A stretch of 34,692 nucleotides of DNA from a virus, in IMG/VR virus record IMGVR_UViG_3300047388_000390, positions 1 to 34,692 of that record. The stretch is one strand, 5' to 3'. Every line of letters starts with the position of its first letter. Position 1 is the stretch's first letter. Position numbers and translations under genes: made by a program. This document shows, in pieces, positions 3,017 to 25,830 of this stretch. Under the pieces are notes generated by a model. That model ran no database searches. It had not been told where the DNA came from and worked only from the letters and a program-made list of their open reading frames with translations.

Positions 3017-4009
3017 TCACGGCACGTCGGGCTCGTCGGTGAGCTCCTCGAGGGCGTTGATGGTGGCTTGCTCCTCGGGTGTGAGCTGCTGCCATCTGGT
3101 GAGGGCTTCGATGACTTTTCCGGCTTCGCTGATGGTGAGCTCGTTCGAGGTTTGGATGGTGCGGCCGATCGTTTTGATGGTGTAGGCGAGCCGGTCTTCT
3201 CGGTTGTCGATGCCGATGTCGCGCATGAGCGCGAATATTTGGCGTTGCTGGGCGCCGGTCATGGCGGGTTCGTCTGGGATTTCGGGCTTAGGCTGGGTGT
3301 CCGGTGGTGGGAGTGGTTCCGGCGCCTGGGCGCCGCCGCTGGGGGATGGGGAGCTTGGCGGCGGCGCGGGCGCCGGTTCTGTGGCCGGTGCGCGTTTCCG
3401 GCGGGTCGCCGGGCGCTTCGGCCTCTCGGTCTCGAGCTGGACGGTGGGCGTGACGCCGTTGTCGGGTTCGCCTTCGAGCTCTTCGACGGCTGCCATGCCG
3501 CCGATGACGTCGGCGAACATCGCGCGGGCGAGGGCTGCGCTGGCGCGTGCGCGGAGCATCTCGGCGGGGTAGCGCTGATAGTTGTGTTGTCCGGCGAGCC
3601 CGGCGCGTTTGGCGTCGTCGAGGGTCCAGGTGATGCGGGCGATGCGGTCGGAGCCGCGGCGTCGGCCGGCGGCGATCGCGCGGGTGATGGTGGATTCCTC
3701 GAACCAGAGCTCGTGGCCGGCGGCGAGGATGAGTGAGCGTTGCCCTTCGGCGAGCATCGCGGGTTTGCCTTTGATGTGGGCGACCATCGCGAGGGCGCGC
3801 ATGGGTTCGAGGCCGACCTCTTCGCCGTAGAGGATGGCGGCGGTGATCGCTTCGGGGCGGTTGCGGAGGGCGTCGGGGACGAATTCGGTGCCACCGATGT
3901 AGGCGGCGATCTCGGCGGCGGCGCGCAGCCGGGTGACCCACGTTTGGGCGCGTTGGTCGAGCTCGATGGCGGGGAGCCGCTCGGGGGGCTCGTAGGGTGT
4001 GATGGTCAT
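3017..4009 (-). CDS. recT: RecT-like single-strand annealing protein
   Basis: A 330-residue protein. Residues about 45-175 contain the RecT core seen in actinophage proteins: FVPDALRNRPEAITAAILYG, EEVGLEPMRAL, HIKGKPAMLAEGQ and a following beta-rich DNA-binding region; then a long Pro/Ala/Ser linker (about 195-250) and a charged C-terminal helical part (TGAQQRQIFALMRDIGI) like the C-terminal module of many phage RecT/Bet proteins. RecT anneals complementary strands and pairs with a 5'-3' exonuclease. The exonuclease gene lies immediately upstream with ATGA overlap, the classic exo-annealase pair. Symbol given by family resemblance only. Confidence 0.72.
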   Translation of the reverse strand: MTITPYEPPERLPAIELDQRAQTWVTRLRAAAEIAAYIGGTEFVPDALRNRPEAITAAILYGEEVGLEPMRALAMVAHIKGKPAMLAEGQRSLILAAGHELWFEESTITRAIAAGRRRGSDRIARITWTLDDAKRAGLAGQHNYQRYPAEMLRARASAALARAMFADVIGGMAAVEELEGEPDNGVTPTVQLETERPKRPATRRKRAPATEPAPAPPPSSPSPSGGAQAPEPLPPPDTQPKPEIPDEPAMTGAQQRQIFALMRDIGIDNREDRLAYTIKTIGRTIQTSNELTISEAGKVIEALTRWQQLTPEEQATINALEELTDEPDVP

Positions 4010-4776
4010 GCGGCCTCTTCTCGTTCTGGTGGCTGGATGATTTCGCCGATCCAGTGCTCGCGGGGTTCTGCGCGAAACTGGGCGACGGCTTGGACGGCGC
4101 CGAACGCGGCGAACGCCTGGGGGCCCGCCTGGATTTCGACGAGGTCGTAGCCGTCGGCGCGGAGCCAGACGACACCGGTTTGGTCGACGCGGGGCATGGC
4201 TCGTTCCTGGTGGCCGTCGAGCCAGAACTCGGCGTACCTGTAGGCGGCGAGCTGCAGCGCGACCTCGGGCCAGGGTTCGCCCTTGGAGGTTTTCCAGTCG
4301 AGGAGCCAGCGGTGGCCGTCGTTGAGGTCTGCGACGAGGTCGACGGTGCCGCCGTACATGAACTCGCGGCTGAAGACGGGGGCTTCGACGAGGAGCTCGG
4401 TGGGCTGCCAGTCTGTGACGAACTGGAGGTACGCGTCGACGTGGCCGATGAGTGGTTCGGGGACGTCGATTTCCTCGCCGGCCTGGAGCCGCTGGGCGAG
4501 GTCGTGGACGGCGGTGCCGCGGACAGTGGCGGCGCTCGTGACCTCGTAGCGGGCTTTCTCGATCCGGCGGAGCCGGTCGGCGCTCCCGAGCTCGGTGAGC
4601 TCCGCCCAGTGGTCGACGGCGTAGCCGGCGGCGACACGGCCTGCCCAGTCGACGAGGGCGGGTTTGGGGTAGCCCTCGCTGAGGCAGCGGGTGACGCCGT
4701 CGACGGGGGCGCCGTCCAGCAGGTAGCTGTGGCCTTTGCCGCGGTTGATGCGCCTGGTGGCGGGCTCAGCGGTCAT
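4006..4776 (-). CDS. RecB-family (PD-(D/E)XK) exonuclease
   Basis: A 256-residue protein with all elements of the RecB/Cas4/lambda-exo nuclease fold: RGTAVH at 86-91 (the GxxxH helix), GGTVDLVAD at 142-150 with the metal-binding Asp at 146, LLDWKTSKG with Asp160 and Lys162, and a QLAAYRYA motif at 175-182 (QxxxY). These enzymes resect double-stranded DNA ends 5' to 3'. The gene directly precedes, and overlaps by 4 nt, the RecT-like gene, supporting a RecE/RecT-type recombination system. No cysteine cluster is present, so it is not an iron-sulfur Cas4. Confidence 0.8.
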   Translation of the reverse strand: MTAEPATRRINRGKGHSYLLDGAPVDGVTRCLSEGYPKPALVDWAGRVAAGYAVDHWAELTELGSADRLRRIEKARYEVTSAATVRGTAVHDLAQRLQAGEEIDVPEPLIGHVDAYLQFVTDWQPTELLVEAPVFSREFMYGGTVDLVADLNDGHRWLLDWKTSKGEPWPEVALQLAAYRYAEFWLDGHQERAMPRVDQTGVVWLRADGYDLVEIQAGPQAFAAFGAVQAVAQFRAEPREHWIGEIIQPPEREEAA

Positions 4777-4782
4777 CGGCGT

Positions 4783-5109
4783 TCAGCAGCCGTCGTAGGG
4801 GCACCACGCCGAGCAGCCGACGTGCCGCCAGAGCAGCCAGGCGCGGTAGTCCTGCTCTGCTTCGGTGGCGCTGCCGGCGTCGCCGCTGCCGCCCATCGCG
4901 CGCCACGTCCCGCCCTCGAACTGCCACTTGCCTCCGGGGATGTGAACCTGGCCGCGTGACTCGCGGTAGACGACGCAGCGAACCGTGGCGGATTGCAGCC
5001 AGCTAGTCGGAGGGTCCGGCCAGCGTTTCGGGGAGGCTTTCGCGGTGACCGCGACAGCGAGCAGAAGCAAATACAAACCGAAAATGGATGTGGCTGTTGC
5101 ACGCTTCAG
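4783..5109 (-). CDS. secreted Rpf/transglycosylase-like protein, probable CTG start
   Basis: The C-terminal about 68 residues match the resuscitation-promoting-factor/transglycosylase-like fold: VRCVVYRESRG with the putative catalytic Glu (residue 50 from the CTG start), GKWQFEGGTWRAMGG, an acidic helix with a QD pair, and a Cys/Trp/Pro-rich end (CSAWCPYDGC). This domain cleaves peptidoglycan glycan strands. If CTG 5109 is the start, the N-terminus begins MKRATATSIFGLYLLLLAVA, an ideal signal sequence, preceded by GGGAAGG; a TTG at 5076 is the conservative alternative, giving 97 aa but no charged n-region. At 108 aa it is a minimal single-domain form. It lies outside the lysis cassette, next to recombination genes, so it may act early or in lysogens. 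Confidence 0.65.
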   Translation of the reverse strand: MKRATATSIFGLYLLLLAVAVTAKASPKRWPDPPTSWLQSATVRCVVYRESRGQVHIPGGKWQFEGGTWRAMGGSGDAGSATEAEQDYRAWLLWRHVGCSAWCPYDGC

Positions 5110-5166
5110 ATCACCTTCCCTTTCATGCGTTTTGGTGGCCTCGCGCGTTTTGCGCGGCGTTCAGTT

Positions 5167-5231
5167 GCGGGCGGCCCGACTGCGGCAAGACCGGGCCGCC
5201 CGCTCTCTCGGCGGGCGCTGGAAAGCCCGCC
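5167..5231. terminator. two strong tandem hairpins in the dcm/Rpf intergenic region
   Basis: Arms GCGGGCGGCCCG (5167-5178) and its exact complement (5192-5203) enclose a 13-nt loop; then GGCGGGC (5210-5216) and GCCCGCC (5225-5231) enclose 8 nt. Neither is followed by a good T-run on either strand, so these could be weak intrinsic terminators, RNA-stability elements or an insulator. They lie between the plus-strand 45-residue gene and the Rpf-like gene. Confidence 0.45.
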
Positions 5232-5251
5232 AAGCTGGTCATGAGAGGTGT

Positions 5252-5268
5252 GCCATAATGGATCGGCA
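5252..5268 (+). promoter_or_regulatory. candidate extended -10 promoter, leaderless start
   Basis: TGCCATAAT (extended -10, CATAAT at 5254-5259) sits 8 nt before ATG 5268. Transcription would begin at about the start codon itself, as in actinobacterial leaderless mRNAs. No good -35 is visible, which is acceptable with an extended -10. Confidence 0.4.
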
Positions 5269-5405
5269 TGCAAATCGTGATCAAGCCACCGAAGCCTTGG
5301 AGAAGACCGCGTGACTGGTGGCGTGTGCGGCGGTCTAAAAACGCTGCCGTGATCGAGATCGATCGACGGAACGCTAAGCCGACCAACCCGGTGTTTCGCG
5401 GGTAA
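5268..5405 (+). CDS. 45-residue basic protein on the opposite strand
   Basis: An ATG frame of 45 codons, beginning MQIVIKPPKPWRRPRDWWRV and ending in a Pro/Phe/Arg/Gly tail before TAA. It is strongly cationic and Trp/Pro-rich, with composition far from random frames, and it fills the only leftover space between dcm and the hairpins. It is the only plus-strand gene in the early region and has its own promoter-like sequence. The family is unknown; small basic phage proteins often bind DNA, RNA polymerase or other host targets, but this is not shown here. An overlapping alternative frame from ATG 5258 encodes an 18-residue peptide and looks less protein-like. Confidence 0.5.
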   Translation: MQIVIKPPKPWRRPRDWWRVRRSKNAAVIEIDRRNAKPTNPVFRG

Positions 5406-5427
5406 CCCTGACTCGATCTCAGAAGGG

Positions 5428-6669
5428 TCATCCGGCCTCCATGAGTCGTCGGCCGATCCATTCGGCGACGGTGGATGTGACGGCGTCACCGAGCGCGGCG
5501 TAGCGTCGGCTGTCGGGTGTCCCTCCGAGGTCCGTCCAACCGTCGGGGAGCGCCTGGAGGCGCTCGCACTCGGTCGGGGTGAGACGGCGAACGGAGGCGC
5601 CTGCGACGTGCGGGATCGAGTTGATCGAGCGCCCGCGGTCGGTTCCCATGCCGCCGGCCTGGAGCGCCATCGCCACCTCATCCTCGGTGGAGTTGCGAAA
5701 GTCCACCGAGACGAGGTTCGGGTCGTCTTCGCTGCGTCTGCCGACCCCGTCGTTGCCACCGCCGAGCGGCCCTGCGATGTAGTTCGTGTTGTGACCTTGG
5801 CCGACACCACCGGGGTCTTTCCGGAGCGCGTAGGCGACGAGGTTGACGTCGTCTTCCTGCCGCCGTCCGGGTTGGTTGACGCCCTGGCCGATCGCGGATC
5901 CCTTCGTCAGCGGCGCAGCGATCAAAGCTGTCCTGTCTGGGTTGGCGTCCCAGCCGCGGTCGCCGCCAACGCTTGCTCCAAGTGTCGGGGCAACATCCGG
6001 CCCCGCTTCTCCGCGCGTCGCAGGATGCCGGTCGCAGCGCGTGCCGACAGCGAGTACCTGGCCGCAACGTTCTGCGGCGGCTCGAGGATCGCCGACAGCG
6101 AGGGCTCCGAGGATGAACACCCTTCTTCGTCGCTGCGGCACTCCGAAGTAACGGCTGTCGAGAACCCGCCATCCCACGCCGTACCCGATGTCGGCCAGCG
6201 TTCCAAGCACGACTCCGAAGTCCCGACCGCCGTTCGAGCTGAGGAGCCCGGGTACGTTCTCGACGAGTAGCCATCGGGGTCGAAGAGCGTCAGCGACCCG
6301 GGCGAACTCGTGGAAGAGCCCGGAGCGGCTGCCGGCGAGCCCTCGTCGTTGCCCGGCGACGCTAAGGTCCTGGCAGGGGAAGCCTCCGCAGAGGAGGTCA
6401 GAACGAGCGTCGCCGTTCTCGGCCCATGCCCGGCCGCGTCCACTGTCGGAGCCACTGAACTCTCTGCCCACGACTCCGGGCTCGGGTCGTCCTCGCCCGC
6501 CCGTCGCAACTTCGCGTACGTCCTCGTAGACGGGCACGCCGGGCCAGCGGGCGGCGAGGATGGCTCGCCGATACGGGTCGGACTCGCAGAAGAACAGATG
6601 GCGGTGTCCGGCCCGGTGGAGTCCGTGGTCGAGTCCGCCGATCCCGCTGAAGAGCGATCCGACATTCAC
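5428..6669 (-). CDS. dcm: C5-cytosine-specific DNA methyltransferase
   Basis: A 413-residue enzyme with the ordered motifs of m5C methylases: motif I LFSGIGGLD (6-14), motif IV GGFPCQDLS with catalytic Cys99, motif VI ENVPG (137-141), motif VIII QRRRRVF (179-185), a long target-recognition region (about 195-365), then RRLTPTECERLQALPDGW and LGDAVTS for motifs IX-X. It transfers methyl from SAM to cytosine C5. GTG 6669 is preceded by GGGAGGA. No cognate restriction endonuclease is visible, so it probably protects phage DNA from host restriction. The target region is rich in Gly/Asp/Arg and gives no specificity clue. Symbol by family. Confidence 0.88.
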   Translation of the reverse strand: MNVGSLFSGIGGLDHGLHRAGHRHLFFCESDPYRRAILAARWPGVPVYEDVREVATGGRGRPEPGVVGREFSGSDSGRGRAWAENGDARSDLLCGGFPCQDLSVAGQRRGLAGSRSGLFHEFARVADALRPRWLLVENVPGLLSSNGGRDFGVVLGTLADIGYGVGWRVLDSRYFGVPQRRRRVFILGALAVGDPRAAAERCGQVLAVGTRCDRHPATRGEAGPDVAPTLGASVGGDRGWDANPDRTALIAAPLTKGSAIGQGVNQPGRRQEDDVNLVAYALRKDPGGVGQGHNTNYIAGPLGGGNDGVGRRSEDDPNLVSVDFRNSTEDEVAMALQAGGMGTDRGRSINSIPHVAGASVRRLTPTECERLQALPDGWTDLGGTPDSRRYAALGDAVTSTVAEWIGRRLMEAG

Positions 6670-6773
6670 CGTTCCTCCCGGTAGAGCTCGAGCAGCTCAA
6701 GGATGTCCTTCCAGAGCTCGTTCATGACCGCGCCGATCGCGACGCCGACGACGAGCAGGAGCGCGGCGGTCAC
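6666..6773 (-). CDS. 35-residue single-span membrane protein
   Basis: GTG 6773 overlaps the stop of the 23-residue membrane peptide (GTGA), and the TGA overlaps the dcm start. The sequence is a hydrophobic helix (AALLLVVGVAIGAVM) followed by an acidic amphipathic helix (LWKDILELLELYREER), a typical small membrane-anchored protein. Its 3' end contains GGGAGGA, the ribosome-binding site for dcm, so translation of this gene probably drives dcm. Function unknown. Confidence 0.5.
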   Translation of the reverse strand: MTAALLLVVGVAIGAVMNELWKDILELLELYREER

Positions 6774-6841
6774 CGGCGCCCCACAAGGAGGATCGTGACG
6801 AGGAGGACGAGGACGAGCGTGGCGATCAGCGCGGTGGTCAC
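6770..6841 (-). CDS. 23-residue hydrophobic peptide
   Basis: GTG 6841 overlaps the stop of the 66-residue zinc-ribbon gene by 4 nt and its TGA overlaps the next GTG. All but the first two and last three residues are hydrophobic (ALIATLVLVLLVTILLV), with an RR end, so it is essentially a lone transmembrane helix. Two consecutive tiny membrane ORFs could form a toxin-like or pore-like unit, or merely be coupling peptides. Support is the exact overlaps and composition. Confidence 0.4.
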   Translation of the reverse strand: MTTALIATLVLVLLVTILLVGRR

Positions 6842-7038
6842 GGGTTCGGATCCTCGAGGCAGTCGGGGCAGAAGCCACTGGTGACGAGCTCGCAGTCGAC
6901 CATGATGGCGTCGAGGCGTTCGAGGTAGGGGTCGCCGTCCTGCATGACGTGGTGGCAGGCGGGGCAGCTGAGGCCGTGGGGCCAGTCGGCGTCCCGGTAG
7001 ATGAGCCGTCCACCGTGGTTCGAGTCCGGAAGGGTCAC
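6838..7038 (-). CDS. zinc-ribbon protein, 66 aa
   Basis: Starts at GTG 7038 with MTLPDSNHGGR, the N-terminal signature shared with the mini-ORFs of this array. Residues 25 onward carry LSCPACHH and, 33 residues later, FCPDCLE: two CxxC knuckles forming a probable zinc ribbon. Overlaps both neighbours by 4 nt. Probably a small nucleic-acid or protein-binding factor. The MTLPDSN part may be a translation-initiation add-on rather than part of the fold. Confidence 0.55.
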   Translation of the reverse strand: MTLPDSNHGGRLIYRDADWPHGLSCPACHHVMQDGDPYLERLDAIMVDCELVTSGFCPDCLEDPNP

Positions 7039-7217
7039 GGCCGCAGGTCTCTCGCGTCGGCTATGGCCTTGTCGATAGCCACCCCGAGCGTTGTCCCGGT
7101 CGTGCCGACATAGGTAACGCCGTTCTTCATCCACGAGTACATCCGCAGCCCTTCGACTAGTCCACATTCGTAGAGCGAGAGCGGCTCGTGTTTCTTGACG
7201 GCGTCCTCGTACCTCAC
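7035..7217 (-). CDS. 60-residue hypothetical protein
   Basis: GTG 7217 lies at the end of a 35-bp repeat that supplies AGGTGG six nt upstream. The protein (MRYEDAVKKHEPLSLYECG start) reads as a compact alpha/beta fold with WMKNGVTYVGTTG and a terminal helix AIDKAIADARDL. No family recognised. Overlaps both neighbours by 4 nt. Confidence 0.55.
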   Translation of the reverse strand: MRYEDAVKKHEPLSLYECGLVEGLRMYSWMKNGVTYVGTTGTTLGVAIDKAIADARDLRP

Positions 7218-7248
7218 GGCCGTCCACCTGGGTTCGAGTCCGGGAGGG
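7214..7248. repeat. 35-bp perfect direct repeat, copy A
   Basis: Identical to 8146-8180. On the coding (minus) strand each copy encodes the peptide end LPDSNPGGRP, contains the Shine-Dalgarno-like AGGTGG, and ends in GTGA, which is both the stop of a mini-ORF and the start of the next gene. Confidence 0.9.
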
Positions 7249-7252
7249 TCAT
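7214..7252 (-). CDS. 12-residue mini-ORF MTLPDSNPGGRP (coupling leader)
   Basis: ATG 7252 overlaps the stop of the 92-residue gene and its TGA overlaps GTG 7217. The peptide matches the first eleven residues of the downstream 66-residue zinc-ribbon gene apart from N-P/H changes. It is too short to fold; most likely a translational-coupling leader or a remnant of module duplication. Confidence 0.4.
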   Translation of the reverse strand: MTLPDSNPGGRP

Positions 7253-7527
7253 CGGCGCTCGTACTCCAACTCCACGACCCTCGCCGCGAGCAATTCGATT
7301 GCTTCGGCTGCTTCGGAGAGCAGCCCGTTTAGTTCGTAGAGCAGCGGGCCTCCCCCGGCGAGGCGCTCATCGACGACAGTTCGAAGTCGAAGGGCTAGCG
7401 GAAGGCTTAGCGAGCCGCCGGAATCCGAGTGACAGCTCGGAGACGCGCCTAGCGCATCGGCCTGTCCAGAGGCCTCCGGCAGCTCGCTCAGCGACCGTTT
7501 ACTGGGGTTCGAGTCCGGAGGGCTCAT
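7249..7527 (-). CDS. hypothetical protein with C-terminal helix, 92 aa
   Basis: ATG 7527 overlaps the previous stop (ATGA). The N-terminus MSPPDSNPSKRS carries the PDSN signature shared by this array; residues about 12-45 are Ser/Pro/Gly-rich and disordered, and the last 45 form an amphipathic helix (LLYELNGLLSEAAEAIELLAARVVELEYERR region) resembling a short coiled coil. No known domain. Confidence 0.5.
   Translation of the reverse strand: MSPPDSNPSKRSLSELPEASGQADALGASPSCHSDSGGSLSLPLALRLRTVVDERLAGGGPLLYELNGLLSEAAEAIELLAARVVELEYERR
7501..7521 (+). repeat. T-arm-like repeat unit (GGTTCGAGTCCGG)
   Basis: One of six same-orientation copies of GGTTCGAGTCC in this array, at about 7018, 7231, 7505, 7803, 8163 and 8224. 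The core equals the T-loop of tRNAs, but no tRNA folds around it. On the minus strand it encodes DSN. Confidence 0.7.
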
Positions 7528-7796
7528 ATCGGCCCGTCCGTGTACCGCTCCGGATGGTCGACCCGCGGGTCGTAGTCCGGCCGTGGCCGGTAGCGGCGCT
7601 GCCACCATTCGGGGGAGTGGTAGTGCGTCCAGTCCCCCTGGGCCATGCCGCCACAGACGGGCCCCCACTGTTTGCGTGGGAGCCCGCAGCCGTTGCACCA
7701 TTCTTCGGTGAGCGCGACCTCGAGCCGGGAACTGGGACTTTCGCGGTCGCGCAGCATCTTCTCGGCGCGGCGGAAGTGTTCGCGCGGCTCAGGCAT
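7524..7796 (-). CDS. Cys-containing hypothetical protein, 90 aa
   Basis: ATG 7796 lies in TAATG close to the end of the mini-ORF. An N-terminal charged helix (EHFRRAEKMLRDRE) precedes WCNGCGLPRKQWGPVCGG, a CxxC plus third Cys that may bind zinc with a nearby His, then an aromatic/Arg/Asp-rich tail (SPEWWQRRYRPRPDYDP). Family unknown; composition suggests nucleic-acid binding. Confidence 0.5.
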   Translation of the reverse strand: MPEPREHFRRAEKMLRDRESPSSRLEVALTEEWCNGCGLPRKQWGPVCGGMAQGDWTHYHSPEWWQRRYRPRPDYDPRVDHPERYTDGPI

Positions 7797-7848
7797 TACC
7801 GGGGTTCGAGTCCGGGAGGCCGGGAAGCTTGGTTCTCGGCCCGGTCAT
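7789..7848 (-). CDS. 19-residue mini-ORF ending LPDSNPGNA
   Basis: ATG 7848 overlaps the preceding stop (ATGA) and TGA 7791..7789 falls 6 nt inside the next gene. It begins MTGPR and ends with the LPDSNPG peptide, like the other mini-ORFs. Probable coupling leader or decayed module. Confidence 0.35.
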   Translation of the reverse strand: MTGPRTKLPGLPDSNPGNA

Positions 7849-8066
7849 TCGCCTCTCCGGCGTGCGCGATCGGCGGCTACGGCGGCGTCATCGACAAGTT
7901 CGCGCACCTGCTCAAGCAGCCCTTCGGCCTCATCGCGAGCAAGCATCACCGTGAACACATGGCCGGGATGCCGCTGCGAATAGTCGCGTTCTTCGGCGAC
8001 CTTGCGGGCGAACGTGACGAGCCAATCGCGCGTCGGACTGGGATCCGCATCCCGCCGCCCCGTCAC
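7845..8066 (-). CDS. hypothetical helical protein, 73 aa
   Basis: GTG 8066 begins MTGRRDADPSPTRDWLVTFA; the MTGRRDA start is encoded by a variant of the 31-bp repeat and shared with two neighbours. The body is charged and helical (EERDYSQRHPGHVFTVMLARDE, then ELVDDAAVAADRARRRGE). No domain recognised. Overlaps both neighbours by 4 nt. Confidence 0.5.
   Translation of the reverse strand: MTGRRDADPSPTRDWLVTFARKVAEERDYSQRHPGHVFTVMLARDEAEGLLEQVRELVDDAAVAADRARRRGE
8035..8065. repeat. 31-bp repeat, diverged copy
   Basis: Matches 8180-8210 and 8341-8371 with about three substitutions. On the minus strand it supplies the MTGRRDA start and the preceding stop. Confidence 0.75.
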
Positions 8067-8149
8067 GTCGTCACCGTCTCGGCGCGCTCGAGCTGCGCAC
8101 GCAGCCACGCGATCAGCTCCGCGTCGCTGACGATCCAGGCTGCGGTCAC
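8063..8149 (-). CDS. 28-residue helical peptide
   Basis: GTG 8149 lies at the end of the 35-bp repeat with AGGTGG upstream. The peptide (MTAAWIVSDAELIAWLRAQL start) is an amphipathic helix. TGA overlaps the next GTG. Probably a real small gene or coupling peptide; function unknown. Confidence 0.4.
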   Translation of the reverse strand: MTAAWIVSDAELIAWLRAQLERAETVTT

Positions 8150-8180
8150 GGCCGTCCACCTGGGTTCGAGTCCGGGAGGG
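8146..8180. repeat. 35-bp perfect direct repeat, copy B
   Basis: Identical to 7214-7248, 932 bp away. Abuts a 31-bp repeat (8180-8210), so the two repeat types form a composite gene junction. Confidence 0.9.
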
Positions 8181-8211
8181 AACTGGGATTCGCATCCCGC
8201 CGCCCGGTCAC
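8146..8211 (-). CDS. 21-residue mini-ORF made wholly of repeat sequence
   Basis: GTG 8211 to TGA 8148..8146. It begins MTGRRDANPSS (31-bp repeat) and ends LPDSNPGGRP (35-bp repeat), joining the start module of one gene type to the end module of another with nothing between. Both ends overlap neighbours by 4 nt. Looks like a module-junction product. Confidence 0.4.
   Translation of the reverse strand: MTGRRDANPSSLPDSNPGGRP
8180..8210. repeat. 31-bp perfect direct repeat, copy 1
   Basis: Identical to 8341-8371. Contains GGGATTCGCATCCC, a 5-bp-stem hairpin. Supplies the MTGRRDANPSS start on the minus strand. Confidence 0.9.
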
Positions 8212-8372
8212 GCGTCGTCCTTGGGGTTCGAGTCCGCTAGGCTTGCTATGCCGGTCCGAGCGCGGATGGAGCCAGAGTCGGGTAGCCGGACCTCATCGTC
8301 CTTCACAAGAGCCCTTCGGGGCTCTTGGCGCATGAGCCATGAACTGGGATTCGCATCCCGCCGCCCGGTCAT
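8208..8372 (-). CDS. 54-residue ORF between 31-bp repeats
   Basis: ATG 8372 overlaps the previous stop (ATGA); TGA overlaps the next GTG. It starts MTGRRDANPSSW and ends LADSNPKDDA, the usual array modules, but its middle spans an 8-bp UUCG hairpin and is charged and low in hydrophobics. It may be a noncoding spacer with a regulatory hairpin that happens to stay open. Confidence 0.35.
   Translation of the reverse strand: MTGRRDANPSSWLMRQEPRRALVKDDEVRLPDSGSIRARTGIASLADSNPKDDA
8307..8326. terminator. hairpin with stable tetraloop, possible terminator
   Basis: AAGAGCCC-TTCG-GGGCTCTT is a perfect 8-bp stem closed by C(UUCG)G on the plus strand (CGAA loop on the minus strand). No T-run follows in either direction, so termination would be weak; RNA processing or stability is equally possible. 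Confidence 0.45.
8341..8371. repeat. 31-bp perfect direct repeat, copy 2
   Basis: Identical to 8180-8210; together they bracket a 130-bp segment containing the tetraloop hairpin. Confidence 0.9.
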
Positions 8373-8584
8373 AGCAACGACACCTGCTTCGGCGACACAC
8401 CCGATTGCACGAGGGCGATGCAGCCGGAGTGGGCGAAGTCGGCGACGGACTCGCGGAGGACGATGTCTGATCCGCCCTTCCTGCTCTCGGCCAAGGCTTT
8501 GCGTTCCCAGCCGACGACACGCCGGTAGGTGTCGCGGGCGAGCGGGTCGACCGGCTCACCACAGAAATGACACGCGGACGTCAT
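8369..8584 (-). CDS. putative zinc-binding protein, 71 aa
   Basis: Begins MTSACHFCGEPVD (CxxC knuckle) and later has FAHSGCI, giving a possible C-C-H-C zinc site; between them is a basic helical insertion (WERKALAESRKGGSD). Similar small proteins are common in actinophage early regions and may relate to degenerate HNH or treble-clef folds. Start overlaps the MT-A70 stop and its own stop overlaps the next ATG. Confidence 0.55.
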   Translation of the reverse strand: MTSACHFCGEPVDPLARDTYRRVVGWERKALAESRKGGSDIVLRESVADFAHSGCIALVQSGVSPKQVSLL

Positions 8585-9126
8585 GCGCCAATCTCGACGT
8601 GCTCGAAGGCTTCGTTGCCCCAGGTGTCCCAGCCGAGCCGATTACGCCTCGCGAACATCTCTAAATACGGGCCTGGGCAGACGGTCTCGACAAGGTCAAG
8701 GAACGCCTCAGGCTTGACGCTGTGGCCTGAACGCGACCACTCCCACCAGTCACGCGAGACCTTGCCATACGTCTCAGGCTTGCCACGACGCCCGTAAAGG
8801 ACGAACTCGCAAGAGTTACCGAAAACGCCTCCGAGGCTAAACCCAGTTGGCGGCTTGCACCATACGAGCTGTTTGACGTAACGGAATCCCCATCTGTCGA
8901 GCACCTCGTGGCCGGTGATGAGATAACGCTGTGTAGTCCACAGGAACAGGTGCGCGTCCTCCGCGGCGAGATCACGTATGGGTAGGGCCGCGATTTCTTC
9001 ACTGCGCATCGTCGAGTAGTCAAGAAATGGTTCAGCCTCGCCGCTCGGTGTACCTTCGCGCCATGAAAAGCCGCCCCGCTGGTCGTAGAACCACGGCGGG
9101 TCAGCGACGATGGTGCGGTACTTCAC
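8581..9126 (-). CDS. MT-A70-family adenine N6-methyltransferase
   Basis: A 181-residue protein with the MT-A70 catalytic motif ADPPWFYD (residues 8-15), LFLWTTQRYL, VKQLVWCKPPTG, and a terminal AdoMet-binding strand PYLEMFARRNRLGWDTWGNE. The FAR-R-GWDTWGNE ending is the family hallmark. Phage members methylate adenine N6 in DNA and usually act without a partner nuclease, protecting phage DNA. GTG 9126 overlaps the preceding stop (GTGA). Length is normal for the phage form. Confidence 0.85.
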   Translation of the reverse strand: MKYRTIVADPPWFYDQRGGFSWREGTPSGEAEPFLDYSTMRSEEIAALPIRDLAAEDAHLFLWTTQRYLITGHEVLDRWGFRYVKQLVWCKPPTGFSLGGVFGNSCEFVLYGRRGKPETYGKVSRDWWEWSRSGHSVKPEAFLDLVETVCPGPYLEMFARRNRLGWDTWGNEAFEHVEIGA

Positions 9127-9359
9127 AAATCCCCCATTTGCAGGGGTTTTATGGTTTGGGAGGCGGCGGGATGGTTACGCGGGTACGCAGCCCGCCGTGC
9201 GGGCTCGGCGGCACGGCCGGAGCCGGTGACGATCACGCGGACGGAGGTCACCGCGGCGCACGGCTCCGGCCCCTGCGGCAACAGGTGCCGCCGACCCTGC
9301 GAACGCACCAGACCACCCGTTATCGTGCGTTCGAGGAGATGTTTGGCTCTATCAGCCAT
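9123..9359 (-). CDS. hypothetical 78-residue protein between integrase and MT-A70
   Basis: ATG 9359, 26 nt after the integrase stop, opens a frame with nearly all G/C at third positions through its middle, and its TGA overlaps the MT-A70 start by 4 nt. The protein is basic with no visible domain; the C-terminal part (AASQTIKPLQMGDL) is encoded over the 14-bp repeat. There is no clear Shine-Dalgarno, so the start is uncertain. This stretch could instead hold attP. Confidence 0.4.
   Translation of the reverse strand: MADRAKHLLERTITGGLVRSQGRRHLLPQGPEPCAAVTSVRVIVTGSGRAAEPARRAAYPRNHPAASQTIKPLQMGDL
9137..9150. repeat. 14-bp direct repeat TTTGCAGGGGTTTT, copy 2
   Basis: Identical to 36-49. It is preceded by CCCC(C)A, giving a weak CCCC/GGGG inverted repeat around the core. 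It is located 236 bp from the integrase 3' end, a usual place for attP, but no host junction is available to test that. Confidence 0.35.
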
Positions 9360-9385
9360 CTTGCGAGACACCCGAACGCAACACC

Positions 9386-10456
9386 TTAATAATCCCTCTG
9401 GGCTTCCTCGACGAGCTTGAGCGCGGCCCGCAGGTCGTCTGCGCTCGGGTGCAGATATGCAGCCGTCGTCGCCGGTGATTGGTGGCGGAGCAGCAGCTGT
9501 GCGAGCACGATGTTCCCGGTGCGCCGCCAGATGTGATCGGCGGCGGTGTGCCGCAACTCGTGCATCTGGATCGTCTGCGGCAGGTCGGCCTTCGCGAGGC
9601 AGCGCTTGAACCAGCGATGAACCGATGACGGGTTCATCGGCGTGGTTCGGCGGTTCCTCGCGTACAGCAGATATTCGTCGCCTGGGTCGCCGCCGGCCTC
9701 GAGGCGGCGCTCGAGCCCATGGGTGCTGAGGTCGCTCGTGAGGTCGAGGAACACGATCGGGAGCTCCTGCCGTTTGCCGCCCTTCGCGTGGTTGAGCTGG
9801 ATCGTGTCGACGATCAGGTCGATGTCGCGGATCTGGAGCATGCGGACGTCGTTGCGGCGCAGCGCGAGCCGGAACAGCCCGAGGGCGCACCGGTCACGGA
9901 GCGATTCCTGCGCGTTGATGAGGCGGCTCACGATCTCCTGGTCGTAGGCGCGGCGCTCTTTCAGGTTCCTCGGCGCCTTGGGCTTGCGGATGCTGCGAAC
10001 CGGGTTGAACGGCAGATCGCCTTTCTCGACGCACCAGCCGCAGAACCCGTTCAGGATCCGGTAGCGCTGCGCCCGCGTGTTCTCCGACTTCGTCGCCCAG
10101 TTCATGTAGAGGAAGTCCTCGAGCAGTTCCGGTCGTTCGCAGAACTCCCCCACTCCGGCGAGGTCGTCGTGTGTGAGCGCCAACTTCGCGAGGACACCTT
10201 CATAGGCCTCGAACGAGTTGTCCATCATCCCGGCGTACTGCATCGCTCGCAGGTATCGCCAGACGGTCTGGCCGACCGGGCTCTCGCGGTAGCTTTTGTC
10301 TTTCACGTCAGCCTCGACGGCAGCGAGCAGCTGCCGGATCAGCGGGCCGACCGGTGTACCTTCTGGCGTGCATGGGAGCTGATACCTCCTGTGCCGTGCC
10401 CGGGCCGTTTCGGCGGTGCCGGGCTTTTTGTTGTCGGCCAGGATGGTACCGCTCAT
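9386..10456 (-). CDS. int: tyrosine recombinase / phage integrase
   Basis: A 356-residue protein with an N-terminal SAM-like core-binding domain (about 35-160) and a C-terminal catalytic domain. Visible catalytic residues: Arg in LALRRNDVRML (200/201), Lys in HAKGGKRQELP (225-228), HELRH (His299, Arg302), His325 in LLLRHQSPATT and Tyr334 in AAYLHP. It catalyses site-specific integration and, with a directionality factor, excision, so the phage is temperate. ATG 10456 overlaps the upstream 54-residue gene stop (ATGA), tying integrase translation to the repressor operon. Confidence 0.92.
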   Translation of the reverse strand: MSGTILADNKKPGTAETARARHRRYQLPCTPEGTPVGPLIRQLLAAVEADVKDKSYRESPVGQTVWRYLRAMQYAGMMDNSFEAYEGVLAKLALTHDDLAGVGEFCERPELLEDFLYMNWATKSENTRAQRYRILNGFCGWCVEKGDLPFNPVRSIRKPKAPRNLKERRAYDQEIVSRLINAQESLRDRCALGLFRLALRRNDVRMLQIRDIDLIVDTIQLNHAKGGKRQELPIVFLDLTSDLSTHGLERRLEAGGDPGDEYLLYARNRRTTPMNPSSVHRWFKRCLAKADLPQTIQMHELRHTAADHIWRRTGNIVLAQLLLRHQSPATTAAYLHPSADDLRAALKLVEEAQRDY

Positions 10457-10617
10457 GTGGCGAGCTCCTCGAGCCGGTCGAGCGCGGCGAGCGCCTGACG
10501 GCACGCCTGCCGGACCTCCTCGTCGCCGGCGAGCTCGGCTCGGTCGGCGAGGTACAGGAGGGCGGCGCGGACGGTCTTCGCTTCGGCCACGACGAACGCT
10601 TCGCGGACGACGCTCAC
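10453..10617 (-). CDS. 54-residue helical protein between repressor and integrase
   Basis: GTG 10617 overlaps the repressor TAG by one base (TAGTG) and its TGA overlaps the integrase ATG (ATGA). The protein begins MSVVREAFVVAEAKTVRAAL and is a nearly continuous Ala/Glu/Leu/Arg amphipathic helix pair, with high third-position GC. The exact fit between two genes makes it convincing despite its size. Possible roles are a repressor partner or a coupling leader; no family recognised. Confidence 0.6.
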   Translation of the reverse strand: MSVVREAFVVAEAKTVRAALLYLADRAELAGDEEVRQACRQALAALDRLEELAT

Positions 10618-14483: not shown

Positions 14484-15272
14484 CTACACGTCCTCCCACA
14501 GCAGCGAGCCTGCTGCGGTAGCCCACTTGACACCCAGACTCTGGGTGCTGTCAGCGGTGAGTACCTGGCCGTTCGTGCCGACCGGGAGCCTGGAGAAGTT
14601 GTTCGCGCTCGGGGCGACGATCAGGTCGCCCTTCGTGGTGGCGACGTTCTTCAGGACCGCCTGCCGGGACTTCCAGACGCTTGAGCCGGCGTCCCAGTAC
14701 AGGACGTCCTCGTCGGCTGGCGTGGGTGCGGTGACGTCGCCGATGTCGTCGAGGTGCGCGACGGTCGCCGACGGTGTCGTCCAGCCGCCAACGCCGTTCA
14801 AGTAGTGGCCGCTGTTCCCGTCGGTGTTGACCTTGAGCGTGTCGCTCGCAATCGCGATCGTTGTCCCGTCCACGTTCACGGAGAGCACATCGCTGGCCTC
14901 TGAGAGCCCCGCTCCGGCGACAGACGCTGCTATCCCGGGGTTGGGGTAGTTGCCGTCGAGGGCGCCGCCTGCGGCCCCTGTTGGCGCGCCGCCGCCGCCC
15001 GAGACGGTTGACCAGTGGGTGTCGTAGTCGGTGCCGCTGACCTTCGTCAGTGCCTGCCCGCTGCTGCCACCTGTGGGAACGCCGGGGCCGGCGGGTCCTG
15101 TTGCGCCTGTAGCTCCGGTCGGCCCTGCGGGTCCTGTGGGGCCTGCCGGCCCGGTGCCGCCCCCGCCCCCGCCGCCGCCACCGTCGACGGTGATCACGCT
15201 CGGGTCGACGCTGTCGGGGGTGACGGTGAACCCCGAGCCCCAGATGATCTTCGAGAACTTCGTGGTCGGCAT
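14484..15272 (-). CDS. collagen-like tail-fibre protein
   Basis: 262 residues: N-terminal KIIWGSGFTVT beta module (6-17), nine consecutive glycines (31-39), Gly-X-Y triplets at 40-65 (TGPAGPTGPAGPTGATGATG), then a repetitive beta-rich shaft (LSVNVDGTTIAIASDTLKVN; DDIGDVTAPTPADEDVLYWD; RLPVGTNGQVLTADS) like many phage fibre tips. Trimeric collagen segments act as rigid stalks. Its stop abuts the PKD gene start. Likely a distal tail fibre involved in adsorption. Confidence 0.75.
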   Translation of the reverse strand: MPTTKFSKIIWGSGFTVTPDSVDPSVITVDGGGGGGGGGTGPAGPTGPAGPTGATGATGPAGPGVPTGGSSGQALTKVSGTDYDTHWSTVSGGGGAPTGAAGGALDGNYPNPGIAASVAGAGLSEASDVLSVNVDGTTIAIASDTLKVNTDGNSGHYLNGVGGWTTPSATVAHLDDIGDVTAPTPADEDVLYWDAGSSVWKSRQAVLKNVATTKGDLIVAPSANNFSRLPVGTNGQVLTADSTQSLGVKWATAAGSLLWEDV

Positions 15273-23665: not shown

Positions 23666-24289
23666 TCAGGAAATCCCCCATTGTTCTTTCAAGGGCGCGA
23701 GCTTGAGCGCGTGTCGCTCAAAGGTGTCGCGGCCGACGACGACGGCACCGACGGCGTTCTCCCAGATCCCGTACGGCACCTCCTCCTGCTGCCAGTGCTC
23801 GACGGCCCGCTCGAGCGTGACCTCGGTGGCGAGCATGAGTTGCCAGGGGGCGAGGGGATCGATGCGGTCGATCTCGCTGTTCACCTCGCCCGACGCAGCT
23901 GTGAGCACTCTTTCCAGTGCGGCGGTCTGGTCGGCGGTGGGGGCGCGGAGCTTGAGGATCCGGGCGAGCTCGTCGGTGGTGCCGTACACGTCGCTGGTGA
24001 CGGTCGATCCGGCGGTGTTCTGGACGGGCGTGGTGGGTTGGCTGACGTCCCCGTCGAGGTCAGCGAAGATGACGCGGTACCAGTAGCCAACGTCGGTGCC
24101 GAGCTGAGTCGTGAACGAGCGGGCGGCGGGGTGCGCCGGGTCAGTGTCGAGCGGCGACAGCGCGATCGTCTCGAGGTGCGCGTACGTGCCGGTCTCGGTC
24201 GCGGCCTCCTCGATCCGCACCTCCGTCCACGGCAGCTGATCGAATCGTTCCGGGGGCCGGTAGCCGACGAACGAGACAACCTCGCCCAT
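23666..24289 (-). CDS. head-tail adaptor with N-terminal FN3-like domain
   Basis: 207 residues. Residues about 8-95 look like a fibronectin-III/Ig-type beta sandwich (WTEVRIEEAATETGTYAHLE, GYWYRVIFADLDGDVSQPT). Residues 100-207 are the helical adaptor (YGTTDELARILKLRAPTADQ, TLERAVEHWQQEEVPYGIWE), similar to HK97 gp6-like connectors. The adaptor binds the portal ring. An N-terminal FN3 fusion is uncommon and may project from the neck. Overlaps the repeat-protein stop by one nt. Confidence 0.65.
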   Translation of the reverse strand: MGEVVSFVGYRPPERFDQLPWTEVRIEEAATETGTYAHLETIALSPLDTDPAHPAARSFTTQLGTDVGYWYRVIFADLDGDVSQPTTPVQNTAGSTVTSDVYGTTDELARILKLRAPTADQTAALERVLTAASGEVNSEIDRIDPLAPWQLMLATEVTLERAVEHWQQEEVPYGIWENAVGAVVVGRDTFERHALKLAPLKEQWGIS

Positions 24290-25830
24290 CAGCGGCCTGC
24301 CTTCGCGAGTTCGCCGGTGCCAGCGTGGCTGAGTTCGCCTGCGGCACCGGCGGTGATCCGTCCCGGCCAGGTGGCGGGAAACGCGGGGATAGCGGCGAAC
24401 CCGCCGCTGGTCGCGGTCGCGTACTCTCCCCGGTCGGGATGGTCGATCCTGCCGATCCCGGTGAACACGACGCCGCCCCGCTGCGGGTTGAGGATCCAGC
24501 CCGGGTCGAGCCGGATCGTGGTCGTTGCGTCCGTGTGGAGGGTCGCGTATAGGGCGACGGTCGCGGCGCCTACCGCTGCCCGGCCGCCACCGCTCGTGAT
24601 GGTGACGTGCTCCGACGCGGCGGCCTGTCCGTAGTGGACGCGGGCGCCGAGCGTGATGATGGCGACGGTCTGGTGGACGCTGCTCGCCGCGAATGTCTGC
24701 CGTCGCCCGGCGGTCGTAGTGGCCGCTGTCTCAACGACCGCAGCCTGCCCGAACGTTTTGCGACTTCCGGTGGTCGTAACGCTGTCGGTGACGGTGACGG
24801 TCGCGGAGCCGAACCGGGTCGGGTGCGTGGCGGTGCCGGCGCTGGTGACGGTGACCGTTTCGGCGACCGTCGAGCTCGAGGTTGTTCGGCGCCGCCCGGC
24901 TGTCGTGACGGCGGCGGTCAGCGCGACAGTGGTAGCGCCGATCGCTTTCCGCACCCCGGCAGTGGTGGCGGGCACGGTGAGCGTGACCGTTGAGGCCGCG
25001 AACGTTTCCCGCACGGCGGCGGTCGCGACGGAGACGAGCACGGCGGCCGTGGAGGCCGCCTTTGCCGTGAGCCTGCCGGCGGTCGTGCGCACGTCGGTCA
25101 GCGGAACGGCGGTCGCAACGAACGTTCTGCGGGTGCCGGAGGTCGTGCGGACGTCGGTGAGTGCGACGGTCGCGGCACCGAGATAGGTGACGGGGCCGCC
25201 GGTGCCGGTGCCGGCGGTCGTGACGGTGACGGTCTCGCCGGTCGCGCTCGCGGCTTTCGAGGTGAGCCGCCCGCCGGTCGTGCGGGAGTCGATGAGCGCG
25301 ACCGTGCTCGACGTGAGCGCCTTGCGGGTGCCGACGGTGACAACTGACACGGTCTCGCCGACCGTGGCGGCGGTGCGGGCAGTGAGCCGACTGGCGGTTG
25401 TCCGCTGATCGGTGAGCGCAGCAGTGGCGGCAGCCCTCGCGGTGAGACGCCCTAGCGTCGTGACCGTGCCGGTGAGCCCGACCGTTGCCGACGACGTGGT
25501 CTTGCGAGTGCCGGCGCTGCTGCGAACGTTTGTGAGCGCCACGGTGGCGCCGCCGAACGTTTTGCGTGCTGCCGCGATCGTGACCGTGGCGGTGAGCACG
25601 ACGGTGGACACACCGAGCGCTTTCCGGGCGCCGCTGGTCGTGACGGTGCCGGTGAGCCCGACCGCAGAGACCGCGAACGTCCCGCGGACGCCGGCGGTCG
25701 TCAGGCTGTCCGTGACCTGGACGGTCGCGGCACCGGTCCAGGTGGTCGGGCCGGCCTTGGCCGGAAGGTACGACCGCGACCCGGGCCCGCCCAGCCTGGG
25801 TTGCGGCACCGCCCGGGTCGTCTGGCTCAT
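24289..25830 (-). CDS. repeat-rich virion protein with about twenty 20-residue repeats
   Basis: 513 residues. From about residue 30 to 436 it is built of about twenty degenerate repeats of 19-21 residues (a few with Gly/Thr insertions), pattern R-K/L-x-F-x-x-x-T-V-x-L-T-x-x-V-T-T-x-G, e.g. RKALGVSTVVLTATVTIAAA, RKTFGGATVALTNVRSSAGT. Thr/Val/Ala-rich with one Arg at each start, they suggest a beta-solenoid or stacked-hairpin fibre. A 77-residue non-repeat C-terminus (WILNPQRGGVVFTGIGRIDH...) follows. It lies in the head block between decoration-like genes and the adaptor. Family not recognised; role as head or neck fibre is inferred. Confidence 0.7.
   Translation of the reverse strand: MSQTTRAVPQPRLGGPGSRSYLPAKAGPTTWTGAATVQVTDSLTTAGVRGTFAVSAVGLTGTVTTSGARKALGVSTVVLTATVTIAAARKTFGGATVALTNVRSSAGTRKTTSSATVGLTGTVTTLGRLTARAAATAALTDQRTTASRLTARTAATVGETVSVVTVGTRKALTSSTVALIDSRTTGGRLTSKAASATGETVTVTTAGTGTGGPVTYLGAATVALTDVRTTSGTRRTFVATAVPLTDVRTTAGRLTAKAASTAAVLVSVATAAVRETFAASTVTLTVPATTAGVRKAIGATTVALTAAVTTAGRRRTTSSSTVAETVTVTSAGTATHPTRFGSATVTVTDSVTTTGSRKTFGQAAVVETAATTTAGRRQTFAASSVHQTVAIITLGARVHYGQAAASEHVTITSGGGRAAVGAATVALYATLHTDATTTIRLDPGWILNPQRGGVVFTGIGRIDHPDRGEYATATSGGFAAIPAFPATWPGRITAGAAGELSHAGTGELAKAGR
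24523..25743 (-). repeat. about 20 tandem 60-bp coding repeats
   Basis: The 1.2-kb DNA encoding the repeats shows recurring GTG-ACG-GTC words (plus strand) with about 60-bp period. Units are diverged, so they are ancient or selected at the protein level rather than recent slippage. Confidence 0.75.

Follow-up and report, generated by a model that had tools for sequence, protein, structure and literature searches.

Phages acquire many small accessory genes, and whether boundary sequences guide this acquisition has long been debated, since most phage gene junctions are not known to carry a common sequence. Does such a sequence exist in the 34,692-nt IMG/VR record IMGVR_UViG_3300047388_000390? 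In this record, analysed over its whole length and called the window below, a chain of very small open reading frames (ORFs) on the minus strand carries short repeats at its gene junctions, and a first description made from the letters alone (the sequence-only reading) took the chain for a cassette system built on two standard adapters. The explanation that we prefer, with a probability of about one half, is a translated start adapter at which small genes are also joined by recombination. Here the sequence at the junctions is explicit, is translated, recurs in at least 16 phage contigs and goes together with homology breakpoints, so that the boundary hypothesis becomes directly testable.

According to this explanation, an adapter of ~26–36 bp would supply both the stop codon of one small gene (the TGA of an RTGA motif, where R is A or G) and the overlapping start of the next gene, together with the first 9–11 codons of the latter, M-T/S-(G)-L-A/P-D-S/G/Q-N-P-S-K/S/Y-R. 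Recombination at or next to the adapter may place different small genes behind one and the same start, each incoming gene staying in frame and translationally coupled to the preceding gene; mini-ORFs that consist of adapter only would most simply be joints without payload. The recombination would most likely be homologous, possibly aided by phage recombinases, and adapter-fused peptides would presumably be produced. The carriers appear to be uncultured temperate, actinophage-like viruses that hold the adapter mostly in an accessory segment downstream of the integrase. The window phage is called actinophage-like on the strength of its terminase, which shares ~40% identity with the terminases of Rhodococcus and Arthrobacter phages. 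Should the adapter promote expression or joining, it would offer a ready-made start module for inserting genes; software that calls genes and annotates start sites should consider it.

One adapter family in the window

The perfect 35-bp pair (7214–7248 and 8146–8180) and the 31-bp pair (8180–8210 and 8341–8371) lie where the sequence-only reading had placed them, and the diverged copy at 8035–8065 matches at 90%. That inventory was incomplete: further copies are found at 7000–7034, 7489–7523, 7796–7820 and 8218–8242. All nine copies placed between 7000 and 8372 (Table 1) are on the coding strand and in one reading frame, as …[LA]PDSNP… or RRDANPSS. The 35-bp unit (LPDSNPGGRP, with LPDSNPGG as its counterpart of RRDANPSS) and the 31-bp unit share this frame and are members of one family, not the two separate units originally described. 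The 11-mer GGACTCGAACC occurs six times, always between 7017 and 8235 and nowhere else in the 34.7 kb, and it always reads DSN.

We inspected 14 consecutive minus-strand ORF junctions from 9126 to 6669. Thirteen are exact 4-nt ATGA or GTGA overlaps, as had been claimed for nearly every junction; the sole exception, at 7796, is an 8-nt overlap, and the TAATG quoted alongside involves a third frame. RTGA overlaps by themselves are ordinary for tightly packed phage genes. The repeat had further been credited with supplying the ribosome-binding site, a role that the comparison does not bear out: the AGGTGG in question is peculiar to two window copies and absent from the family consensus.

The adapter family in other phage contigs

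We scanned the window and 15 other IMG/VR contigs over their whole length with a 26-position profile built mainly from the relatives, using 457 kb of reversed sequence as null. The scan yielded 57 good copies in the 16 contigs, at ~14–44 bits compared with a null maximum of 6.0 bits, and within each contig the copies occupy a single strand. Their coding-strand consensus is RTGA[CG]C(GGC)CT[AT][GC]CGGA[TC]-(TCG/GGT/CAG)-AA[TC]CCCAGT-(AAA/TCT/TAT)-(CGG/AGG)C, and most copies consist of the RTGA stop/start overlap followed by M-[TS]-(G)-L-[AP]-D-x-N-P-S-[KSY]-R.

When viral contigs were first searched by pattern, most matches were genuine tRNA T-arms (in genes, or as fragments in antisense), because the adapter core resembles a tRNA T-arm. 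A search with the integrase led to contig L020 (71% identity), where MSLPASNPSSRPR starts a gene; a codon-degenerate pattern led to L025–L028 and a refined pattern to L029–L039. Direct search of IMG/VR with a 19-bp core of the 31-bp unit gave no copy. The family looks nearly exhausted in IMG/VR, since two additional pattern scans brought no new contigs. It was not found in INPHARED, none of the plasmid matches in PLSDB was convincing as an adapter, and GTDB gave one doubtful match, in a Lachnoclostridium metagenome-assembled genome, which is probably due to chance.

Two relatives of the window's integrase region hold duplicated start modules of another kind, TGACCCGCCGCGCCGTCGCC in L020 (8730–8757 and 9018–9045) and TGACCCGTCACAACGCCGC in L023 (4227–4257 and 4505–4535), each beginning at a TGA that resembles the RTGA junction.

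Genes with and without adapter and homology breakpoints

Some genes are found in two forms, one carrying the adapter and one lacking it. The MT-A70 methyltransferase starts with MKYRTIVADPPW in the window, without adapter, and with MTLPESNPSYRTIVADPPW in phage contig G006, with adapter; the only upstream start codon of the G006 gene sits in the adapter, and its domain begins at residue 10, directly after the adapter. A transglycosylase is adapter-less in G017 and adapter-fused in G015.

Three phage pairs were compared, and in two of them an exact breakpoint of homology falls at the adapter end or at the RTGA start adjoining the array. The window and G005 have a largely common backbone at ~70–80% nucleotide identity and not one array gene in common; from GTGACCACC (window 6841) onwards, exactly where the gene behind the last adapter gene starts, the two are homologous again. 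Between G006 and G017, homology starts at the first base 3′ of the adapter (G006 16974). G011 and G018 are ~80–90% identical over most of their length, and the segment from the integrase to the array end is replaced, with one array adapter in G011 versus seven in G018.

The check proposed with the sequence-only reading, that relatives differ between the repeats, thus comes out in its favour: phages with common flanks differ inside. The cassette idea itself stands in so far as adapters precede genes that hardly ever match one another in the 15 other contigs, with variable content; swapping as an active process, and an enzyme for it, would be presumptive.

Placement at gene starts

For placement we listed 70 sites, with attachment-site-like and weak ones counted in. 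An ATG or GTG lies within six codons upstream at 48 of these sites, in 43 cases as RTGA. A Shine–Dalgarno (SD)-like motif stands before 17 of 40 adapter starts, compared with 14% of random 12-mers, which speaks for real starts. Adapter-only short ORFs occur in the window, G012, G016 and G017. In contigs with a Pfam integrase, the array lies downstream on the same strand within a few kb; the exceptions are G009 (~8 kb) and G014 (a single copy ~15 kb off). Payload proteins are nearly all non-homologous, a tblastn comparison of payloads with contigs giving a handful of matches; those recognised by Pfam are MT-A70, DUF1643, HTH_17, transglycosylase-like (twice) and phage zinc finger.

This regularity bears on the notion that the repeats are plain recombination debris, either decayed attachment-site fragments of tRNA or transfer-messenger RNA (tmRNA) genes or functionless tandem duplications. 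The resemblance to T-arms and the perfect 35-bp duplicates in the window would agree with debris, which we nonetheless consider scarcely credible: frame, strand and a near-constant distance to the start are kept in 16 contigs, and the adapter start codon is used by a real methyltransferase.

Placement is not uniform. Some copies lie inside an ORF, as where one G006 ORF holds three, and others at a C-terminal end; such internal or C-terminal copies are those at 15181 and 15346 in G006 and at 6543 and 6663 in G005. Internal copies, in-frame N-terminal fusions to unrelated proteins and the perfectly palindromic centre GGATTCGAATCC of some adapters would fit a selfish element that inserts itself in frame at gene starts and spreads on its own, like the Rickettsia palindromic elements. 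We rate such an element as very unlikely, given a repeat of only ~30 bp that is not palindromic overall and that sits mostly at RTGA starts, in one orientation and mainly at one locus.

Conservation of DNA and free association of adapter halves

Over nine codons of the adapter, third positions hold 9.8 bits of information, compared with 11.0 bits for first positions. Codons that are rare in these contigs are frequent at their adapter positions: AGT (4.8% of serine codons) in 40 of 57 copies, AAT (8.3% of asparagine codons) in 31 of 56 and CTA (4.8% of leucine codons) in 20 of 57. Since the synonymous codons fixed in the adapter are rare ones, what is conserved is, as judged from codon usage, the DNA (or a recent common origin) and not merely a peptide; selection on the peptide as such was rejected as the sole cause for the same reason.

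Left and right halves of the adapter are unlinked (Fisher odds ratio 1.04, p = 1; Mantel r = −0.002), and two copies from one contig resemble each other no more than two from different contigs do. Block-like alternatives (TAGC/TTCC, GGT with AAT, CAG with AAC) favour reshuffled halves as the probable source of this pattern. Of the 57 copies, 12 have a perfectly palindromic centre, GGATTCGAATCC. Two further candidates were rejected: RNA structure, as the outer arms lack covariation and Rfam found nothing above chance in the array, and remnants of tRNA genes, as ARAGORN found none in the window and the recurring part is limited to the T-arm-like stretch, which keeps one frame throughout.

Conserved DNA just behind start codons may also be a functional start-associated sequence, in which RNA or first codons aid initiation, or reinitiation after the overlapping stop, or to which a phage protein binds, as proposed for the start-associated sequences (SAS) of other phages. 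In either case, gene turnover around it would be ordinary mosaicism. The fixed distance to the start codon, the RTGA overlap and the A/T-rich rare codons near the start in a GC-rich genome all suit this alternative. So does L022 (G003), a relative without adapter: at the same locus (4168–5657) it has five copies of a different, unrelated start-associated repeat, (T)GGGACACCACCACCAGAGGAG, which bears an SD motif and in four of the five copies lies 5 nt before start codons of small genes downstream of the integrase and MT-A70 genes. We hold a purely start-associated role to be possible, on balance rather unlikely. Internal and C-terminal copies and arms without covariation do not suit it, an SD-like motif precedes just 17 of 40 adapter starts, and it does not predict breakpoints at two array or adapter borders.

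Several observations count against the start adapter as a recombination joint. (i) The copies inside or at the end of ORFs in G006 and G005 are not covered by the term start adapter. (ii) The boundary between G011 and G018 is not exact and lies 165–230 bp beyond the last adapter. (iii) Among the 16 contigs, no cassette turned up that had changed from one adapter context to another. (iv) Freely combined halves could also be expected if many sites evolve separately under one constraint, and the linkage tests take the copies as independent.

Relation to attachment sites

A site resembling a phage attachment site (attP), CTAGCGG-(7 bp)-CCGCTGT, occurs in six contigs, in five of them just after the integrase; in the sixth contig, G010, no integrase was found. 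Its centres in five contigs are ATTCGAA, AGTCGAA, ATTCCAT or ATCACAT, and in G006, G012 and G018 the site resembles an antisense tRNA T-arm with acceptor strand. The adapters equal this site in the left arm and often in the centre and differ from it in the right arm, and TCG-type adapters look like an antisense tRNA T-loop. From these sequence likenesses, a common origin of adapters and attachment-like site is likely.

A stronger proposal is an integron-like array, in which the phage's own tyrosine integrase, or one related to it, recombines DNA at att half-sites of the T-loop type, with the adapters as capture scars or sites beside attP. Such a cassette system would capture small genes beside attP through half-sites that double as in-frame starts, and each captured gene, coupled to its neighbour, would be translated at once; the system would correspond to an integron array in protein-coding form. 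The matches of left arm and centre in six contigs, the T-loop likeness and the shuffling of halves about the centre point in this direction, as does phage Ms6, which has a 26-bp attP core with exchange in the 7-bp T-loop (PMC1762012). In the array copies, however, the symmetric arm is missing (2.3 of 7 symmetric positions match, compared with 5 of 7 at the attP-like sites), one array mixes centres, and the same adapters occur in phages with different-looking attP regions (G013 and G016).

Genes for tmRNA (ssrA) are a usual integration target. Putative attP regions with a tmRNA 3′ end are present in L054 at 3020–3062 (G011; Rfam E = 6e-10) and in L042 at 9330–9380 (G005; recognised by near-identical sequence). 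The likely attP core of G011 is this tmRNA 3′ end, which the attP-like site adjoins. Active use of the adapters by the integrase is not supported by these comparisons, and we consider the integron-like array improbable. A link to tmRNA tags (ADSNQR resembles an actinobacterial tag) was dropped, as the tmRNA fragment of G011 lies on the strand opposite the adapters.

Two further sites were noted. In L052 (G010), a long perfect inverted repeat, GGTGCTAGCGGAG...CTCCGCTAGCACC (5866–5907), surrounds the attP-like site and is followed by an unusual G/C-rich low-complexity stretch. In the window, GGAGGCGGCGGGA (9146–9165), between integrase and MT-A70, matches the antisense tmRNA 3′ end of G005 and G011 over 13 bp and is a possible attP of this phage in opposite orientation.

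Comparison with known systems

The sequence-only reading knew of no described equivalent, a claim too broad: SAS, the ATGA-linked nin genes of lambdoid phages and the Rickettsia palindromic elements are each partly alike. SAS are the nearest described kind. SAS and extended SAS (ESAS) of Cluster K mycobacteriophages and Cluster EF Microbacterium phages are 13 bp long, lie 3–7 bp upstream of the start in the position of the ribosome-binding site, and mostly occur in gaps >50 bp (PMC3203893, PMC7302621). Like SAS, the adapter is an asymmetric repeat at the starts of unrelated non-structural gene families in one orientation; unlike SAS, it lies downstream of the start codon, is translated and sits at RTGA overlaps. 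The SAS consensus GGGATAGGAGCCC or GGGAAAGGACCCC gave 14 scattered matches (≤2 mismatches) in all contigs and none in the window.

The lambdoid nin region likewise chains small accessory genes of mosaic content through overlapping ATGA stop/starts (Kroger and Hobom 1982, cited in PMC8022706), as 13 of 14 window junctions and 43 of 70 family sites do here; PMC8022706 reports no shared 30-bp translated adapter for nin. Rickettsia palindromic elements are also short repeats, whose conserved peptide becomes part of unrelated proteins by in-frame fusion. They are palindromes of ~150 bp that have inserted into bacterial metabolic genes (PMC10969869), whereas the conserved part of the adapter spans ~26–36 bp at gene starts in phages.

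As in integrons, short genes of variable content follow one another with a repeat between them, behind a tyrosine integrase and an att-like site (except in G009 and G014, where the integrase lies far from the adapters). Here, in contrast, the repeat is at the gene start, translated and without hairpin covariation, the integrase matches ordinary phage types, and the attC core motifs RYYYAAC and GTTRRRY occur together in none of the 57 copies. The att core of T-loop-class integrases has symmetric arms around a 7-bp centre, which the array copies lack. Cluster O phages, too, have repeats at gene junctions, and a gene flanked by their 17-bp direct repeat is missing from relatives; this abundant palindromic repeat is genome-wide and tied to neither start nor frame (PMC4351075), unlike the adapters. 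In the open-access literature searched, we did not find the combination of a translated stop/start adapter, many phages and module borders described.

Gene layout of the locus

The minus-strand order in the window is tyrosine integrase, MT-A70 methyltransferase, a 71-aa Cys-containing ORF, the small-ORF chain and a C5 methyltransferase (Table 1). The best family matches of the integrase are phage integrases. The array proteins have no PHROGs match of note, and a scan of genomes with the 71-aa neighbour protein gave no relative.

Table 1 Features of the adapter locus in the window, in minus-strand order, with adapter profile scores where given
Feature	Position	Strand	Description	Score
Tyrosine integrase	9386..10504	-	Upstream of array	
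MT-A70 adenine methyltransferase	8581..9126	-	Starts MKYRTIVADPPW, no adapter; G006 homologue starts MTLPESNPSYRTIVADPPW	
71-aa Cys-containing ORF	8369..8584	-	No adapter; homologues in L020 (55%) and L026 (81%)	
Adapter-linked small-ORF array	6838..8372	-	3′ boundary relative to G005 exactly at GTGA, 6841	
Copy 1, 31-bp type	8341..8372	-	ATGA overlap and MTGRRDANPSS; opens ORF 8372-8208	16.8
Copy 2	8218..8242	-	LADSNPKDDA at C-terminal end of ORF 8372-8208	
Copy 3, 31-bp type	8180..8211	-	GTGA overlap and MTGRRDANPSS; first half of 21-codon mini-ORF 8211-8146	
Copy 4, 35-bp type	8146..8185	-	LPDSNPGGRP-stop/GTGA; second half of mini-ORF 8211-8146	
Copy 5, diverged 31-bp type	8035..8066	-	MTGRRDADPSP; opens ORF 8066-7845	
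Copy 6	7789..7822	-	GLPDSNPGNA-stop; ends mini-ORF 7848-7789, overlaps start of ORF 7796-7524	11.8
Copy 7	7495..7527	-	ATGA and MSPPDSNPSKR; opens ORF 7527-7249; exact family consensus, 0 mismatches	36.7
Copy 8, 35-bp type	7214..7252	-	Entire mini-ORF MTLPDSNPGGRP	
Copy 9	7000..7038	-	GTGA and MTLPDSNHGGR; translated start of Cys-rich 66-aa ORF 7038-6838	13.3
Two short ORFs (6841-6770, 6773-6666)	6666..6841	-	First backbone genes past array; no adapter; 77% nt identity to G005	
Cytosine-C5 DNA methyltransferase	5428..6669	-	Downstream of array	

The status of ORF 8372-8208 as an ordinary gene is doubtful because a strong terminator-like hairpin, AAGAGCCCCGAAGGGCTCTT (8300–8330, minus strand), lies inside it. 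Elsewhere in the window, degenerate 60-bp tandem-like repeats (~20 aa) extend from 24749 to 25725 inside a 513-aa ORF (24289–25830).

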